From Bacillota bacterium (GTDB lineage Bacteria > Bacillota > Sulfobacillia > JABLXB01): a DNA stretch of 64,000 nt. The stretch lies in assembly GCA_013178305.1 (NCBI GenBank), contig JABLXB010000007.1:186001-250000 (forward strand). Reading direction: 5' to 3'. A model generated the notes under the pieces. The model did not search any database, had not been told where the DNA came from, and worked only from the letters and a program-made list of their open reading frames with translations. Made by a program: the position numbers and the translations under genes. Position 1 is the stretch's first letter; each line of letters begins with the position of its first letter. Below, piece by piece: positions 35,148 to 56,138 of this stretch.

Positions 35148-35176
35148 CACATCGGATTGACATAAGTCATAAGATA
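35148..35176 (+). promoter_or_regulatory. Sigma-K-like promoter of SPOCS gene 1
   Basis: CACA at 35148-35151 and CATAAGATA at 35168-35176, separated by 16 bp, fit the sigma-K consensus mACm-N16-CATAnnnTA exactly. Transcription would begin about 25 bp before the start codon. A TTGACA at 35157-35162 lies inside but has no well-spaced -10. Confidence 0.6.
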
Positions 35177-35208
35177 TGGTGACCCCAGGGAGAAAGGAGG
35201 TCAAGACA

Positions 35209-35703
35209 ATGGCGAAGGTTCAGATCGTTGGACTCGCAGACCCCGCGACTTATCCCGTCGCTCCAACCATGTTCACCCAGATTGCCCTAGTTGACACGCT
35301 GGTTGCCTCTGAGTTGAAGCCCCCGATAGAACAGCTGATCACGGTCTTCATCGATGTGTCCATTGATTCGGTGCGCATAGTCCAGACGCCGATAGGGACC
35401 TCACTAGGTGGGCAGATCCTGTTGGGGGCCAAGGCGGTCATCGAAGGGACGGTCAACCAGAAGATGACGTATGTCGCGGCGGCGCCCGATCAACCGGTCC
35501 ACGCCTTCGAGGGAACCATCCCGTTCAGTACTTTCATAGTGGTTCCCCCGACGGTTGGTGGCATACCCATCGTGGACCTGTTGGGTGCGATCAAGGTAAC
35601 CCCATTTATTGAGGACGTGTTCGTAAATGTCACCTCGCCCAGGTCGGTATTCAAAAATGTCATTCTGTTCTTGAATCTGACGATTGCCACTCCGCTGCCC
35701 TGA
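35209..35703 (+). CDS. SPOCS (DUF3794)-domain protein 1
   Basis: A 164-residue protein with the SPOCS/DUF3794 pattern: PIEQLITVFIDVSIDSVRIVQTP at residues 44-66, then a beta-rich AVIEGTVNQKMTYVAAAPDQPVHA segment. SPOCS domains occur in spore-coat and coat-associated proteins such as SipL. The ATG has AAAGGAGG eight bases upstream. Its paralogue lies convergently at 35870-36388 and shares N-terminus (VQIVGLADP), length and domain order. A sigma-K-like promoter supports mother-cell expression late in sporulation. Confidence 0.78.
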   Translation: MAKVQIVGLADPATYPVAPTMFTQIALVDTLVASELKPPIEQLITVFIDVSIDSVRIVQTPIGTSLGGQILLGAKAVIEGTVNQKMTYVAAAPDQPVHAFEGTIPFSTFIVVPPTVGGIPIVDLLGAIKVTPFIEDVFVNVTSPRSVFKNVILFLNLTIATPLP

Positions 35704-35869: not shown

Positions 35870-36388
35870 CTAAGACTGTCTCGGCTTATGGGGTTGGGAT
35901 AACAAGTTGGTTATGGAGACGTCCAGGAACAGGATAATGTTCTTGAAGATTTTTCTCGGCGAGACTACATCGACAAAGACGTCCTCAACAAACGGCGTTA
36001 CCTTGAATGCTTTTAGTAGATCATTAACGGGCACACAGTTCACCGATGGTGGGATGACTACGAATGTGCTGAATGGTACGGAACCTTCGACCGCGTGGAC
36101 GGGTTGGTCTGGCTCGGAGGCCACGTAAGTGATTTTCTCGTCAATGTTTCCCTCGACCACCAGTTTACAGCCGGTCAACCGCAATCCGGAAACGGATGTT
36201 CCTACCGGGGTTTGGATTATTCTAGTCGATTTCAATGTGACATCCAGCAACACGCTGACGAGCTGCTCTATCGGAGGCTTGGGTTCAGGGACGTCTACTG
36301 TATCCATCACGGCGATCTCGGTGAACATCGTGGGAGCGATGGGGAACGACTCCGGGTCGGCCAGGCCGACGATCTGAACGTTCAACAT
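35870..36388 (-). CDS. SPOCS (DUF3794)-domain protein 2
   Basis: A 172-residue paralogue of the protein at 35209-35703. Shared features include VQIVGLADPESFPIAPTMFTE, PPIEQLVSVLLDVTLKSTRI, ITYVASEPDQPVHAVEGSVPFSTFVV and TPFVEDVFVDVVSPRKIFKN. It differs mostly at the C-terminus, which adds QPHKPRQS. The ATG at 36388 follows GGAGGGG by eight bases. It also has a sigma-K-like promoter, so both genes are probably expressed together in the mother cell. Confidence 0.78.
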   Translation of the reverse strand: MLNVQIVGLADPESFPIAPTMFTEIAVMDTVDVPEPKPPIEQLVSVLLDVTLKSTRIIQTPVGTSVSGLRLTGCKLVVEGNIDEKITYVASEPDQPVHAVEGSVPFSTFVVIPPSVNCVPVNDLLKAFKVTPFVEDVFVDVVSPRKIFKNIILFLDVSITNLLSQPHKPRQS

Positions 36389-36420
36389 GCATCCATCCCC
36401 TCCTGGCATGCTGCCACTCG

Positions 36421-36604: not shown

Positions 36605-37399
36605 TCACGCCTGTATTATGCCGGCGTAGGGTCCGAAGTTCTGCACGGCCCACGAGCGGGCCTGCTCTGGCCGGAGGCTTCGCCCGGAAAAGAACAGTGC
36701 CTCGACCACACGCAGGATCCACACGTCCACGGGAACGACCTCGTATTTCTGCAGACCATACAGGAGTACGCAGTCGGCAACCTTCCCGCCGACACCGGGC
36801 ACTCCCATAAGCGTGCGCCGTGCTTCTTCGACTGGCAGGCGGCGCAACCCCTCGAGGTCGAGATCACCTGAATCCACCATTCGCGCCGCGGCGCGCAGGT
36901 AGGGCGCGCGGTAACCGAGGCCGGCGCGCCTGAGATCCTCGTCGCTGGCCACGGCAAGGCGACGGGATGACGGGAATGCCCCCATGGGCGAGCACATCGA
37001 GCAGACATTGCCCACACACCGCGTGATGCGGGGGACGTTGTTGTTCTGGGAGACTATGAAGCAGACCAGCGCCTCCCACGGGTCCTGTCGTAGAACCCTC
37101 AGCCCTCGCGAGAACTCCAGCGCCGGTCTCAATTCGGGTAAACGGTCTGCGACATCCGTCCTGATTGCCTCGTAGTCCCTGTCGAGATCGAGGTAGCGGC
37201 ACACGCTCACCGCAGTGTGGCCGGCGTCTTGGCTGTCGTGCCGTATGATGAGGCCCGGACCTTCCTGCTTGAGTTGCACCGCCATGTTATCGATGTAACC
37301 AGAGAACCAGTCGCCACCCTGCGACCACCGGAAGGCCTGGCCGGACAGCAGCGTGGCAGGCAGATTGAGGTCGGAAACCGTGATCCTGGTCTCGGCCAA
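36605..37399 (-). CDS. OGG1-type 8-oxoguanine DNA glycosylase, C-terminally interrupted by TGA
   Basis: A 264-residue protein with the OGG N-terminal domain and a helix-hairpin-helix catalytic domain. The latter carries GVPGVGGKVADCVLLYG with the catalytic Lys and VPVDVWILRVVE with the catalytic Asp (about residues 210-240). The enzyme removes 8-oxoguanine from DNA by a lyase mechanism. The reading frame ends FGPYAGIIQA at TGA 36605-36607, but the same frame continues VFHWAR plus 15 residues to a second stop at 36539. The family's usual end is of the form AGxxQQYLFHYAR, so the TGA sits where a Tyr codon is expected. Catalytic residues remain present. Confidence 0.83.
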   Translation of the reverse strand: MAETRITVSDLNLPATLLSGQAFRWSQGGDWFSGYIDNMAVQLKQEGPGLIIRHDSQDAGHTAVSVCRYLDLDRDYEAIRTDVADRLPELRPALEFSRGLRVLRQDPWEALVCFIVSQNNNVPRITRCVGNVCSMCSPMGAFPSSRRLAVASDEDLRRAGLGYRAPYLRAAARMVDSGDLDLEGLRRLPVEEARRTLMGVPGVGGKVADCVLLYGLQKYEVVPVDVWILRVVEALFFSGRSLRPEQARSWAVQNFGPYAGIIQA

Positions 37400-37591: not shown

Positions 37592-40210
37592 TTGGAAACG
37601 CAGCGCCTCGTCGAGGTAGCCGTAGATATAAGGTCCCAGAGCTTCTGGGGGACGTACACATATTCAGTGCCGGGGTCGCTCGAGGGCCGTGTGACGCCGG
37701 GGTCTGTCGTCGTCGTGCCTTTTGGTTCGCGCAGGGTCAGGGGGTTCGTCGTACGATATTCGGATCTCACGCAGGCGGTTCAGCCACCGCAAACGCATGG
37801 CACGCGACACACGCCTCCGCTCGAGGGCGAGCCCCGCAGCGGGACCATGCAGGTCGCCGGCCACCAGATCAAGGGCATCATCAGCGTGGTTGAGCCGAAT
37901 CCCGCGCTAGGCCCGGAGATGATGGGACTCGCCCAGGCAGTTGCCGCCGAATACTGTAGCCCCGTCCAGATGGCGCTCCGCGCCATGCTCCCGCCGGCCA
38001 TGGCCGGGCAGAGCCGCAGGCTCGTCGGGCTGGCGGTAGACGAGGCGGGCGTGGAAGCCCTGTCGGGGCCGTTGACGCCCGCGGAGGCGAGCGTCGTGGA
38101 CCTCCTGGTGGACGAGGGTGAGCGAACGCCCGCCGAACTCGCCGAGGCGACGGGGCTCCGCGACATCGAGAGGGTGCTGAGGACGCTCAGGGTGCGGGGA
38201 ATCGTCCGCGTCGAGACGGTGTTCAAGGCGCCACGCGGGGTAAGGATGGCCTGGGAGGCCTCACTCGCGCGCGAGGTAACCCAGGAGGAACTCAGCGTAC
38301 TATCGGGTTCTGCGCCGCGCCGCGCGGAGCTCTTGAAGGTGCTTATAGCCGAAGGGCGGCCCATGGCGGCCGCGGAGGCGGTGAGGAGGTCGGGAGCTGG
38401 GCAGTCGAGTTTGAAGGCTCTCGAGAAGGCGGGCCTCGTCAGGCTCGAGCGCGTGCGGGCGAGTACGATGACGGGCACGGTGGCGGGCGCCATACTGGGC
38501 GCGTCGGTGGGCGGGGTATCGCCCGGCTCGGCAGCAGCCGCGGCCACCGGCGGGCCGGCGCCTGGCCACTCGATGACGGGACGCCTCTACCGCCCGCAGC
38601 CGCTTGGTGAGGCTCACGAACGGGTGGCGGCGGAACTCATCCAGCAGGTGCGCGACGGTGGGCGGGCTGTCCTGCTTGTGGGCGGCACGGCCGCGGAGAG
38701 GACCGGCGTCTATGCTGCGATAGTGGATCAACTGGCGCGCGGCGGCCGGAACGCGATCGTCCTGGTCCCGGAGATAGCGCTGACTCCCAGGCGCAGGCTG
38801 GAACTGTCGTCGAGGTTCGCGGGCAGCGTCGTCATGCTACATAGCGGCCTGCCCGCGGGGGAACGATACGCTCACTGGAAACGAATAGCAGAAGGCGACG
38901 TCGACGTGGTCGTCGGCACGAGGTCCGCGGTGTTCGCACCGGTGCCGCGCCTGGCTGCCATCATAGTTGACGACGAGCATCACGAGGGATACAAGCAGAC
39001 CGAGGGGAGCCCGAGGTACAACGCGCGGGACGTGGCGCTCATGAGGAGTATGCGGCAGGGCGGTACGGTCATCCTGGGCAGTGCGACCCCGTCGGTGGAG
39101 TCGTACTATCACGCTTCCAACGGGGCCTATGGGATACTCCAAGTGCCCGAATCCAGCGTTCACCTCCGCCCGGCGTGCCATACTGTCGACATGAGGGAGG
39201 AACTGAAGCGCGGCAACAGGTCCCTACTGTCGCTCAAGCTCCAGGACGAGGTTCACTCGGCCCTGTCGAGCGACAAGCGCGCTGTCCTGTTTCTGAACAG
39301 GAGGGGCTTCTCGTCGTTCGTTCTCTGCAGGGAATGCGGTTTTAGCCTGCGCTGCCCCAACTGTGACGTGACGTACACGTACCACCGCCCGGGGGTGCTG
39401 AAGTGCCACTACTGCGGCCACGAGGAACCTGCCCCTGACGTCTGCCCGAAGTGCGGCGGGAGGCGGGTGCGCCCCTTCGGGGCGGGCACGCAGCGGGTCG
39501 AGGAAGAGGTCCGCAGGCTCTTCCCGGACGCGCGCGTGGTCAGGGTCGACCTCGACACGGCTTCGCGCAGGTCGTCGTACGATGCGCTTGTCAGGGGATT
39601 CGCGGAAGGCAAGGCAAACGTCCTGGTCTGTACGCAGATGGTCCTCGGAGATGAGGGCCTCCCGCACGCCGCAGTGGCCGGCGTACTCTCGGCCGACCTC
39701 ACGCTGAACCTGCCGGACTTCCGTTCGGCGGAGCGTACGTACCAGCTCCTCTCCCAGGTGATAGCGATCTCGGGCGGGCCGGAGAGTGGCGTCGCAGTCA
39801 TACAGTCGTACGACCCATCACACTACTGTATACAGGCGGCCTGCACGGGCGATTACCGATCGTTCTATACGTCCGAGATCGAGGGCAGGCGCGAATCCGG
39901 CTACCCGCCATTCGGTCACCTTGCGAATGTCGTGATATGGAGCCCCGGCGATGCCGTGGCCAGGGCGCTGGCGAAGGATGCCGCTAGACACCTTCGGACG
40001 CATGGCGGCGGGGGTTTCGAGTTACTCGGGCCGGGCCCCGCGCCATTCCCAAAGCTGAGAGGGTGGTCCAGGTGGCAGATGCTCATGAAAGGGCCGTCGA
40101 GGATCGTGCTGGCTGAGGCGGCGAGGGGCCTATCGCAGGCGCTCGAACGAAAGGTGCGCGCCGCGAGATCGAGGCTCACGGTAGACGTCGACCCGGTGTC
40201 GATGCTATAG
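37592..40210 (+). CDS. priA: PriA primosome protein with degenerate helicase motifs
   Basis: An 872-residue PriA homologue in the standard place before def-fmt. The N-terminal 3'-end-binding domain, winged-helix region, eight zinc-ligand cysteines (CRECGFSLRCPNC ... CHYCG ... CPKCGG) and C-terminal domain are recognisable. The ATPase motifs are altered. Walker A GxTGSGKT reads GGTAAERT (residues 364-371), so the Lys is Arg. DEEH reads DDEH (460-463). The QVxGRAGR motif VI reads QVIAISGG (722-729), losing both arginines, and the KGxDFP segment is GDEGLP. It is therefore probably a non-helicase loader. The TTG start has AAGGA upstream. Confidence 0.9.
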   Translation: METQRLVEVAVDIRSQSFWGTYTYSVPGSLEGRVTPGSVVVVPFGSRRVRGFVVRYSDLTQAVQPPQTHGTRHTPPLEGEPRSGTMQVAGHQIKGIISVVEPNPALGPEMMGLAQAVAAEYCSPVQMALRAMLPPAMAGQSRRLVGLAVDEAGVEALSGPLTPAEASVVDLLVDEGERTPAELAEATGLRDIERVLRTLRVRGIVRVETVFKAPRGVRMAWEASLAREVTQEELSVLSGSAPRRAELLKVLIAEGRPMAAAEAVRRSGAGQSSLKALEKAGLVRLERVRASTMTGTVAGAILGASVGGVSPGSAAAAATGGPAPGHSMTGRLYRPQPLGEAHERVAAELIQQVRDGGRAVLLVGGTAAERTGVYAAIVDQLARGGRNAIVLVPEIALTPRRRLELSSRFAGSVVMLHSGLPAGERYAHWKRIAEGDVDVVVGTRSAVFAPVPRLAAIIVDDEHHEGYKQTEGSPRYNARDVALMRSMRQGGTVILGSATPSVESYYHASNGAYGILQVPESSVHLRPACHTVDMREELKRGNRSLLSLKLQDEVHSALSSDKRAVLFLNRRGFSSFVLCRECGFSLRCPNCDVTYTYHRPGVLKCHYCGHEEPAPDVCPKCGGRRVRPFGAGTQRVEEEVRRLFPDARVVRVDLDTASRRSSYDALVRGFAEGKANVLVCTQMVLGDEGLPHAAVAGVLSADLTLNLPDFRSAERTYQLLSQVIAISGGPESGVAVIQSYDPSHYCIQAACTGDYRSFYTSEIEGRRESGYPPFGHLANVVIWSPGDAVARALAKDAARHLRTHGGGGFELLGPGPAPFPKLRGWSRWQMLMKGPSRIVLAEAARGLSQALERKVRAARSRLTVDVDPVSML

Positions 40211-40284: not shown

Positions 40285-41742
40285 ATGCCGCTTCTTGACA
40301 TCAGGAAAGATGGGGACCCCGTGCTTCGAGTCAAGACGAAGCCGGTCAAGAATCTGAACGCCTCAACGAGAAATCTAATCGAGGACATGGTGGACACCAT
40401 GCGCTCGGCCCGCGGCGTGGGCCTTGCCGCCCCCCAGGTGGGCGTCTCCAAGAGGATAATAGTGATCGAGACCGACGAGGCCCTCTACGAGTTCGTCAAC
40501 CCGGAGATCACGTCGGAAGATGGGTCTGAGACCGCCATAGAAGGGTGCCTGAGTGTGCCCGGGGTCGTCGGCGAAGTCGAGCGGGCGGCGAAGGTACGGG
40601 TCAAGGGACTCGACAGGGATGGCAGGACCGTGTGGGTGGACAGCGAGGGGCTGCTTGCCCGCGTGCTCCAGCACGAGATCGACCATCTCGAGGGCCTGCT
40701 GTTCACCGACAAGGCCTCAGCCACGTACGAAACCAGGCCCGACCCCGAACTCGCATCGGCGAGGCGGCTCAGAGTGGTGTTCATGGGGACCCCCGATTTC
40801 GCGGTCCCATCGTTGATAGCGGTGCTACGCGACGCGCACGAGATACTGGCCGTGGTCACGCGCCCTGACAGGCCGCGCGGTCGCGGGCTGGAACTGTCGC
40901 CGTCGCCGGTCAAACAGTCGGCGGTCAAGCACAGGTTCCCGGTGGTGCAGCCGTCGACGTGCAGGTCCCCTCAGTTCGTCGAGTGGCTCAGGGACGTGAA
41001 ACCCGACGTGATCGTCGTCGTGGCCTTCGGCCAGATACTCCCACGCGAGGTGCTGGAGATCCCCTCGCTGGGGTGCATAAACGTGCACGCGTCGCTCCTC
41101 CCGAAATACCGCGGCGCGGCGCCCATCAACTGGGCTCTCATAAGGGGCGAGCGGGTTACGGGAGTCACCACGATGTACATGTCGGAACGCCTTGACGCGG
41201 GCGACGTCATACTGCAGAAAGAGGTCGCGGTCTCGCCCGACGACAACGCGGGGACGCTTCACGACAAGTTGAAGCATGAGGGTGCGGATCTGCTGACCGT
41301 GACCCTCCGGCTCCTGGGCGCGGGAAAGGCGCCGCGCGCCCCGCAGGACGAGTCGCAGGCGACATTCGCTCCATCATTGACTTCCAAAGACGAGGTGATA
41401 GACTGGAACCGGCCTGCCGGGGACATCCGGAACCACGTGCGCGGCATGAGCCCCTGGCCGGGGGCGCATACTGTCAAGGATGGCAGGAAGATCAAGGTGC
41501 TGGCCGCCACCGTCCTGGATTCCGCGGGGACCGAGATTCATCACTTATTGAGGCGTCAGCCTGAGGGGGCCGGGCGCGCGGGCCTCGTACTCGCGGCCGA
41601 CGAGACAAACGGCCTCGTCGTGCAGGCGGGGGAAGGGCTCGTACGCCTGGACGAGGTACAACCCGAGGGTGGGCGCAGGATGCCGGCGGCGGACTACCTG
41701 AGGGGCGCGCGACTGGCCCCTGGGGATGTCCTCGGAAGATAA
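40285..41742 (+). CDS. Peptide deformylase-methionyl-tRNA formyltransferase fusion
   Basis: A 485-residue chain joining two enzymes normally encoded separately as def and fmt. The N-terminal 150 residues are a deformylase with all three motifs (GVGLAAPQVG, EGCLSVPG, QHEIDHLEG) that bind the metal. After a linker of about 15 residues (ATYETRPDPELASA) comes a formyltransferase with RRLRVVFMGTPDFAVPSL and HASLLPKYRGAAPINWA. One enzyme formylates initiator Met-tRNA and the other removes the formyl group from nascent chains. The frame is continuous, with no stop or restart visible between the parts. Confidence 0.9.
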   Translation: MPLLDIRKDGDPVLRVKTKPVKNLNASTRNLIEDMVDTMRSARGVGLAAPQVGVSKRIIVIETDEALYEFVNPEITSEDGSETAIEGCLSVPGVVGEVERAAKVRVKGLDRDGRTVWVDSEGLLARVLQHEIDHLEGLLFTDKASATYETRPDPELASARRLRVVFMGTPDFAVPSLIAVLRDAHEILAVVTRPDRPRGRGLELSPSPVKQSAVKHRFPVVQPSTCRSPQFVEWLRDVKPDVIVVVAFGQILPREVLEIPSLGCINVHASLLPKYRGAAPINWALIRGERVTGVTTMYMSERLDAGDVILQKEVAVSPDDNAGTLHDKLKHEGADLLTVTLRLLGAGKAPRAPQDESQATFAPSLTSKDEVIDWNRPAGDIRNHVRGMSPWPGAHTVKDGRKIKVLAATVLDSAGTEIHHLLRRQPEGAGRAGLVLAADETNGLVVQAGEGLVRLDEVQPEGGRRMPAADYLRGARLAPGDVLGR

Positions 41743-54068: not shown

Positions 54069-56138
54069 GTGCCCGAGCGAGGTCTGGACACCAGCATACA
54101 GTACGTCCGCGGAGTCGGCCCCGGCAGGGCCGCACTTTTCGGCAGGCTCGGCATCTCCTCGGTCCGCGACATCCTCAATTATTTTCCCGTCCGCCACGAC
54201 GACAGGACCCACATCGCACTCATCGCCCACCTGGAGGACGGCGCTATCCAGACCTTTAAAGGGCTGGTCAGGGGCTCGTCGGACTCGCGCCCCCGCCGCG
54301 GGCTCGTCGTCACGAGAGTGGCCGTGAGCGACGGTAGCGCCGTCGCCCACCTCATGTGGTTCAACCAGCCATACATGGGCAAGCGGTTCAGACCTGGGAC
54401 GTGGTTCATATTTACGGGCAAGGTGGAGCGCAAGTACGGCCGCATCCAGGTCACGGGCGTGGAGTACGAGGAGCTCGGCCGCGACGACCAGACGAACACT
54501 GGCTGCCTGGCCCCGATATATGGCTTGACCGGGGGGCTCAGCCAGCGGACCGTGCGGGCGGTGGTGAGGGCGGCTCTCGACCAGTTCAGTCAGCAGATCG
54601 GTGACACCCTGCCCGCGGCCATAAGGGCGTCGAGGGGCCTCGTGGAACTGCGGCAGGCCTACGAGGGGATCCACTTCCCCGGTACCCAGGAGGCGCTGGT
54701 TTCGGCCAGGCGCCGGCTGGTGTTCGACGAGTTCTTCTACCTGCAGGTAGCGCTCGCGTGGATCCGGAAGCGAAACTCGTCCAGCCGGAGGGGAGTAGCC
54801 CACGCCCCTCCGGGGAGCCTGGTCCGCTCAGTGCTGCGTGGCTTGCCCTTCAAACTTACACGGGCGCAACTCAAGGTGCTCGCCGAAATCGGCGCCGACC
54901 TGGAAAGCCCGGTGCCGATGAACAGGCTGCTGATGGGCGACGTTGGGTCCGGCAAGACGGTGGTGGCTGCGCTCGCCCTCGCAAGGGCTGTGGAGAGCGG
55001 GTACCAGGGTGCTCTCATGGCGCCTACCGAGATCCTTGCCGAGCAGCACTACGCCAACCTCGAGCGGCTGCTGGGGCCCGCCGGAATTCGTGTAGTGCTG
55101 CTGTCGGGCGGCCAGGCACCCTCCGAGAGGGAGGCCGCCATCCGCGCGTTGTCGGTGGGAGACGCTCACGTCGCGGTGGGCACCCATGCGCTGATCCAGG
55201 AGGGCGTGGATTTCAAGGCGTTGAGCCTGGTCGTCACCGACGAACAGCACAGATTCGGCGTCAGGCAGCGGGCGGCGTTGCGGGCTAAGGGCATCATGCC
55301 GGACGTCCTCGTCATGACCGCCACGCCCATACCTCGTACTCTCGCGCTCACCGTGTTCGGCGACCTCGACGTCTCCGTCATCGACGAGTTGCCGCCGGGC
55401 CGCAAGCCCATCAAAACGATGTGGAGAAAAACCGATAACAGGGAGAAGGTCTACGGCTGGCTCCGTGGACAGGTTGACAGGGGGAAGCAGGCCTACGTTG
55501 TATGCCCGCTGATCGACAACTCCGAGGCGGTGTCGGCCCAGGCGGCGACAGAACTCAGGGGAGAACTCGCGCGCGGGGCGCTGGCCGGCATCGAAGTCGG
55601 GCTGCTACACGGCCGCATGAAGGGAGACGACAAACGATCCGCAATGGATTCATTCAAGTCCGGCCGAACGCGCGTGCTGGTGGCGACCACCGTGATCGAA
55701 GTGGGTGTGGACGTCCCGTCGGCCACCATCATGATCGTCGAGGGGGCAGAACGCTTCGGCCTCGCCCAGCTCCACCAGCTCCGCGGCCGCGTGGGTAGGG
55801 GGGGCGAGCAGTCTTACTGCGTGCTGCTGTGCAATGCGTCAACCCCCGAGGCCGAGCGCCGCATGGACGTGATGGCCTCCACCACCGACGGCTTCAAGAT
55901 CGCCGAGGCCGACCTCGAGATGAGGGGCCCCGGCGAGTTCTTCGGCGTCAGGCAGCACGGCCTTCCGGACTTCAGACTCGCCAACCCCGTCCGCGACCTC
56001 CCGGTGCTGGAGGAGGCGCGCGGCGAGGCATTCCGCATCGTGGAAGGGGACCCGCCGCTCGAGGAAGCCCCATATGCCGCGATCAGGATGGAGGTCGCCA
56101 GGAGGTTTTCCGACCTCGGGCTGTTCAAAGTCGGCTAG
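54069..56138 (+). CDS. recG: ATP-dependent DNA helicase RecG
   Basis: A 689-residue helicase that reverses stalled forks. The N-terminal wedge/OB region occupies about residues 1-250. Helicase motifs are intact: Walker A GDVGSGKTVVAALA near residue 290, DEQHRFGV near 392, TATPIP near 418 and QLRGRVGRG near 572. This contrasts with the degenerate motifs of PriA in the same region. GTG start with AAGGAG eight bases upstream. Convergent with gpr. Confidence 0.95.
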   Translation: MPERGLDTSIQYVRGVGPGRAALFGRLGISSVRDILNYFPVRHDDRTHIALIAHLEDGAIQTFKGLVRGSSDSRPRRGLVVTRVAVSDGSAVAHLMWFNQPYMGKRFRPGTWFIFTGKVERKYGRIQVTGVEYEELGRDDQTNTGCLAPIYGLTGGLSQRTVRAVVRAALDQFSQQIGDTLPAAIRASRGLVELRQAYEGIHFPGTQEALVSARRRLVFDEFFYLQVALAWIRKRNSSSRRGVAHAPPGSLVRSVLRGLPFKLTRAQLKVLAEIGADLESPVPMNRLLMGDVGSGKTVVAALALARAVESGYQGALMAPTEILAEQHYANLERLLGPAGIRVVLLSGGQAPSEREAAIRALSVGDAHVAVGTHALIQEGVDFKALSLVVTDEQHRFGVRQRAALRAKGIMPDVLVMTATPIPRTLALTVFGDLDVSVIDELPPGRKPIKTMWRKTDNREKVYGWLRGQVDRGKQAYVVCPLIDNSEAVSAQAATELRGELARGALAGIEVGLLHGRMKGDDKRSAMDSFKSGRTRVLVATTVIEVGVDVPSATIMIVEGAERFGLAQLHQLRGRVGRGGEQSYCVLLCNASTPEAERRMDVMASTTDGFKIAEADLEMRGPGEFFGVRQHGLPDFRLANPVRDLPVLEEARGEAFRIVEGDPPLEEAPYAAIRMEVARRFSDLGLFKVG

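Follow-up and report, generated by a model that had tools for sequence, protein, structure and literature searches.

The window, that is, the whole stretch of 64,000 nucleotides analysed here, carries a priA gene whose coordinates and frame, as given in the earlier note, proved correct on re-reading (Table 1). The reading frame is uninterrupted, its GC content by codon position (0.69/0.52/0.81) is of the coding type, and in a family profile search the ORF matched the priA model TIGR00595 with 493.6 bits, compared to a cut-off of 230.35. Specifically, the product displays the domain order of PriA: a 3'-end-binding domain, two RecA-like lobes, an eight-cysteine zinc-binding domain and a C-terminal domain. 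The gene is flanked by coaBC upstream and by def-fmt, rsmB, rlmN and the genes for a PP2C phosphatase and a PASTA Ser/Thr kinase (PknB) downstream, a neighbourhood usual for Firmicutes. The genome (G000; 3.37 Mb, 22 contigs) was also searched for a second PriA, a check proposed in the earlier note, and none was found, the window gene being the only copy.

Two similar genes on opposite strands and an OGG-type glycosylase gene lie between coaBC and priA. On the other side, a single ORF encodes a fusion of peptide deformylase with methionyl-tRNA formyltransferase; def and fmt lie near each other and in one frame in the relative L032, and the def and fmt matches of three loci of family f27 (L115–L117) share a common frame too.

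Table 1. Features of the priA region and recG in the window (positions of the whole stretch).
Feature	Position	Strand	Remarks
Gene similar to the next	35176–35703	+	175 aa
Gene similar to the preceding	35870–36409	-	179 aa
OGG-type glycosylase gene	36605–37399	-	
priA	37592–40210	+	872 aa, TTG start; probable PriA pseudohelicase; sole PriA of the genome
3'-end-binding domain	37592–37906	+	residues 1–105; Asp12, Gly37, Pro43 and Phe44 kept in all degenerate PriAs
Q-motif, Gln lost	38615–38617	+	His342; 97% of degenerate PriAs (lineage-weighted) lack the Gln
Motif I (Walker A), degenerate	38672–38713	+	LLVGGTAAERTGVY; Arg370 (AGG, 38699–38701) replaces Lys
Motif II (Walker B)	38969–38980	+	DDEH, residues 460–463; Asp in place of the catalytic Glu461; Glu462 unchanged
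Motif III, intact	39071–39103	+	ILGSATPSVES
Motif IV region, intact	39290–39307	+	FLNRRG
Cysteine-rich zinc domain	39326–39454	+	Cys579, 582, 588, 591, 605, 608, 618 and 621 all present
Motif V, degenerate	39626–39664	+	VCTQMVLGDEGLP; intact form VGTQMxAKGLDFP
Motif VI, degenerate	39755–39778	+	QVIAISGG; intact form QVxGRAGR; both Arg-finger positions lost
C-terminal domain	39869–40207	+	60% identical to degenerate G002; 25–40% to intact PriAs, a normal level
def-fmt fusion	40285–41742		485 aa; def 1–155, fmt 162–477
recG	54069–56138	+	intact by family score (TIGR00643, 733.8 bits, over cut-off)

None of the signatures of an active SF2 helicase (Walker A GxxGSGKT, DEEH, KGxDFP, QVxGRAGR) is present in the window PriA. 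Its Walker A motif reads GGTAAERT, where active PriAs follow the GxxGSGKT pattern, and LGDEGLP stands at the AKGLDFP of motif V in intact PriA. The four readings of the earlier note (GGTAAERT, DDEH, GDEGLP and QVIAISGG), including the Lys to Arg change at codon 370, are thus borne out, as are its statements that the zinc cysteines and the DNA-binding domain are kept. The claim that all key motifs are lost is instead an overstatement, since Ia (LVPEIALT), Ib (VVGTRSA), III (GSATPSVES) and IV (FLNRRG) are intact, while the loss of the Q-motif glutamine had been missed. Taken as a whole, an otherwise conserved PriA with degenerate motifs I and II and a Lys to Arg replacement corresponds in sequence to the Deinococcus-type pseudohelicase.

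The concentration of the changes was measured on 30 ATP-motif and 84 other core positions, chosen for a conservation of 93% or more among 47 intact PriAs. The window PriA differs at 15 of the former, where every intact PriA differs at three at most, and at nine of the latter. Across the five degenerate families described below, lineage-weighted, 20 of the 30 ATP positions are lost versus 13 of the 84 others (Fisher p = 4e-7, on positions that are not strictly independent and with motif limits drawn by hand). In the same way, intact G021 is 95% identical to Bacillus atrophaeus at the catalytic positions and the window PriA 36%, whereas outside these positions the window protein and that of B. 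atrophaeus show ordinary levels of identity. The eight zinc cysteines are kept in all 24 degenerate PriAs.

The AlphaFold2 model of the window protein (mean pLDDT 76) finds PriA structures as its best PDB fold matches, and the alignment with 8fak (Z 30.5, rmsd 3.3, 633 residues) predicts a PriA fold from end to end. No difference in P-loop secondary structure was seen between this model and that of an intact-PriA control, in which the helix start is identical. The prediction therefore gives no support to a collapsed P-loop, and the models speak neither for nor against loss of the nucleotide site.

The census of the class, which includes Thermaerobacter and Sulfobacillus, covered 154 genomes; outside the degenerate set, motifs were read in about 44 genomes and the remaining PriAs were judged intact by their high family scores. 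Degenerate PriAs were found in five families: that of the window (f1), f25, f27, f40 and f6, the last with 13 genomes read for motifs. In f1 they include G002 (JANLGA010000039.1) and G001, whose PriA is cut to a fragment by the end of its contig. PriA is intact in G023, which we take to be Symbiobacterium thermophilum. It is also intact in Thermaerobacter marianensis (G043; PMC3035304) and Sulfobacillus acidophilus (G033; PMC3558970).

On an rpoB+rpoC tree (2341 columns) three changes of PriA state are needed, the strongly supported branches alone force three, and no bootstrap tree accommodates a single change; one origin, or the transfer of a single degenerate priA, was rejected (AU p = 5e-5). 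The PriA tree built without the motif columns needs three changes too, with weaker support (its well-supported branches force two), so that the pattern is not explained by the transfer of a single degenerate gene. Because a joint regain of four motifs is not credible, these changes represent at least three independent losses, in f1, in f25 and in the group f27, f6 and f40, the last accounting for one or two. Of the alternatives raised in the earlier note, convergent or lineage-wide loss, both apply: the loss is family-wide in the window's family and recurrent in the class.

Beyond the class, a phylum sample of 398 genomes yielded five full-length outliers, four from family f106 and one from f179. 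The motor motifs are lost at L217, L215, L218 and L214 (G355, G517, G470 and G227; Halanaerobium family) and at L220 (G532; f179), with P-loop replacements that differ among them. G355 is the cultivable Halanaerobium praevalens (PMC3156398), and a genome from another genus of its family (G395) has an intact PriA. Judging from taxonomy, the losses in the Halanaerobium family and f179 would be separate from those in the class, which brings the separate losses in the phylum from at least three by tree to probably five in all. Two low-scoring candidates, G398 and G347, were rejected as contig-edge fragments of intact PriA. In addition, L124, L125 (family f8) and L128 combine an intact Walker A with DECH, DEAH or DEQH in motif II and a motif III ending in PDVVD or PDLST, a possible partial drift of the motifs.

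Within the class, the Walker A lysine position holds Lys in all 47 intact PriAs and Arg in all 24 degenerate ones that were aligned, as well as in the G001 fragment. The P-loop residues flanking Arg370 vary widely among the degenerate proteins, and in f6 and f40 the loop is one residue shorter. As Arg370 is strictly kept while its neighbours drift, it is probably under selection. As a first step, Lys to Arg is readily reached (AAG to AGG). It is no universal route, given that outside the class G470 has Asp, G532 has Val and G517 retains Lys in a wholly changed loop. All degenerate PriAs of the class keep an acid at position 460 and Glu at 462 in motif II, with which Arg370 could perhaps form a salt-bridge lock. 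Two further positions changed in parallel. Thr443 occurs across the degenerate lineages (Ser in two f6 genomes) where intact relatives have Ala or Pro; being present in active E. coli-type PriAs too, it is not inactivating alone. Arg/Lys563 likewise arose in parallel in all degenerate lineages, with the exception of G002.

The candidate partners were compared across families. DciA occurs in f1, the window genome included, and in f6, f27 and f40; it was not found in f25, Halanaerobium or f179, each of which has a DnaD-domain protein. The helicase loader is therefore rejected as the cause of motor loss, degenerate PriA occurring alike with either. Across the class, DciA and the DnaD-type domain hardly ever occur together (127 and 17 of 154 genomes, respectively), and only the window genome was seen to have both (G000:C1:1076632 and G000:C12:5791); its DnaD-domain gene lies on a contig of 14 kb, perhaps as part of a mobile element.

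In E. coli, recG phenotypes are suppressed by loss of the PriA helicase. RecG, which the earlier note had described as intact in the window, a reading borne out by the family score, is a candidate alternative fork remodeller. It is kept in f1, f6, f27 and f40 and apparently absent from f25, and several families without RecG have intact PriA, so that its absence is rejected as the cause of motor loss as well. RecG appears to be missing in a scattered way in the class, with Mfd-level matches only in f25, f36, f37, part of f38 and f43. No full-length RecQ was found in the window genome. In conclusion, none of the compared partners (DciA, DnaD, RecG) explains the motor loss.

An artefact of sequencing, assembly or alignment, the danger to which the earlier note had itself pointed, might be suspected in a window drawn from a 22-contig assembly. 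Nevertheless, two other genera of the same family, from independent assemblies (including JANLGA010000039.1), are degenerate at the same places, and sequencing error is thereby excluded; changes of this kind recur in about 20 more genomes, and full-length colinear homology would not survive a frameshift. An artefactual origin is barely credible. Decay of priA under relaxed selection would account for the disappearance of the consensus from four motifs, but we consider it very unlikely, as the loss is concentrated in nucleotide handling and the frames are open in every degenerate genome with a complete locus. Moreover, dN/dS (Nei–Gojobori) is 0.23 for the window gene against G002 (dS 1.6, near saturation) and 0.09–0.35 in ten other degenerate pairs, equal to that of intact PriAs (0.18–0.35 in six pairs). 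The degenerate priA is maintained by purifying selection and is not a pseudogene. Together with the invariant zinc cysteines, these values support the earlier note's proposal of selection for a non-hydrolytic function.

A protein so maintained might still bind ATP, hydrolysing it weakly or using its binding alone as a switch, with Arg370 on the phosphates. Arg is a conservative replacement that all degenerate copies in the class share, and the retained acids 460 and 462 leave room for some residual nucleotide binding. This explanation is unlikely all the same, since most lineages have also lost the glycines of the P-loop, the Gln of the Q-motif, the Lys of motif V and the Arg residues of motif VI, all of which are changed in the window, the f6 and f40 P-loops are shortened, and K230R on its own abolishes both ATPase and helicase of E. 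coli PriA, leaving primosome assembly and cell viability (PMC4504706). At least as unlikely is that PriA has left replication restart for a new role, such as a scaffold in repair or a loading factor at origins. With the motor gone, and function in these lineages read from sequence, there would be room for such a role; it is opposed by the retention of the fork-binding and zinc residues, the lack of any further PriA in the genome, the conserved place of the gene among coaBC, def-fmt, rsmB, rlmN, PP2C and PknB, and the behaviour of Deinococcus radiodurans PriA, which is roughly equal to the E. coli protein in binding ssDNA and forks and also binds DnaB (PMC4504706). We therefore favour, with a probability of about 0.82, the explanation that the window gene makes a PriA pseudohelicase, which binds forks and helps to reload the replisome without unwinding.

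By analogy with D. radiodurans PriA and E. coli K230R, this pseudohelicase would recognise the fork and act as a platform for helicase loading. A lagging strand lying over the loading site would be cleared by another enzyme, such as RecG or a PcrA-type or RadA-type helicase; alternatively, restart would be limited to forks with a lagging-strand gap. Arg370 would hold the lobes in a fixed shape in place of the nucleotide, perhaps paired with the acids 460 and 462. More tentatively, and at somewhat less than even odds, we propose that PriA has repeatedly turned from a motor into a static fork-recognition and loading platform across the Bacillota, and that the one route taken convergently in the class was a Lys to Arg structural lock, newly selected rather than a relic.

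PriA pseudohelicases are an already known kind. No report of PriA motor loss in Bacillota was found in a literature search whose scope left subscription journals mostly outside, and, as far as searched, the occurrence in Bacillota, the repeated losses in closely related bacteria and the constraint on the Arg are new. The need for the PriA motor in restart has been described as unclear (PMC10804225), and our data suggest that it is dispensable more often than thought. Several losses beside motor-keeping relatives provide natural before-and-after pairs, which separate fork recognition and loading from unwinding and make it possible to look, by comparison, for whatever has taken the place of the motor. 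The invariant Arg is a testable single-residue prediction, and cultivable members such as H. praevalens exist.

Among known systems, the earlier note had pointed to actinobacterial PriA as the precedent. Degenerate PriAs do have a precedent, and the best one lies in Deinococcus-Thermus (PMC4504706); in the literature searched the actinobacterial protein is described only as smaller and very divergent (PMC1193525), and the window PriA, set against it by this description and by model scores, matches weakly, far below the cut-off of every PRK14873 model. Bacillus subtilis-group PriAs (L033–L045) are orthologous, with 36–37% identity over the length and the same domain order and zinc cysteines; Bacillus restart proceeds via DnaD/DnaB/DnaI (PMC10804225), whereas the window genome has DciA. 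E. coli K230R carries Lys to Arg at the same Walker A position, but it is a single laboratory substitution, and the natural degenerate PriAs have lost the surrounding catalytic residues as well. D. radiodurans PriA, with undetectable ATPase and negligible unwinding (Lopper 2015, PMC4504706), is like the window protein full-length, degenerate in motifs I and II and marked by the identical Lys to Arg change, an Arg found across Deinococcus-Thermus PriAs. In the window PriA motifs V and VI and the Q-motif are also seen to be lost, and DNA binding, an activity measured in D. radiodurans, is here read from the conserved residues. Lopper et al. viewed Deinococcus-Thermus as an exception (PMC4504706), and the loss described there is phylum-wide, while here it appears sporadically, amid close relatives whose PriA is intact; the two belong to different phyla, which points to an independent origin.
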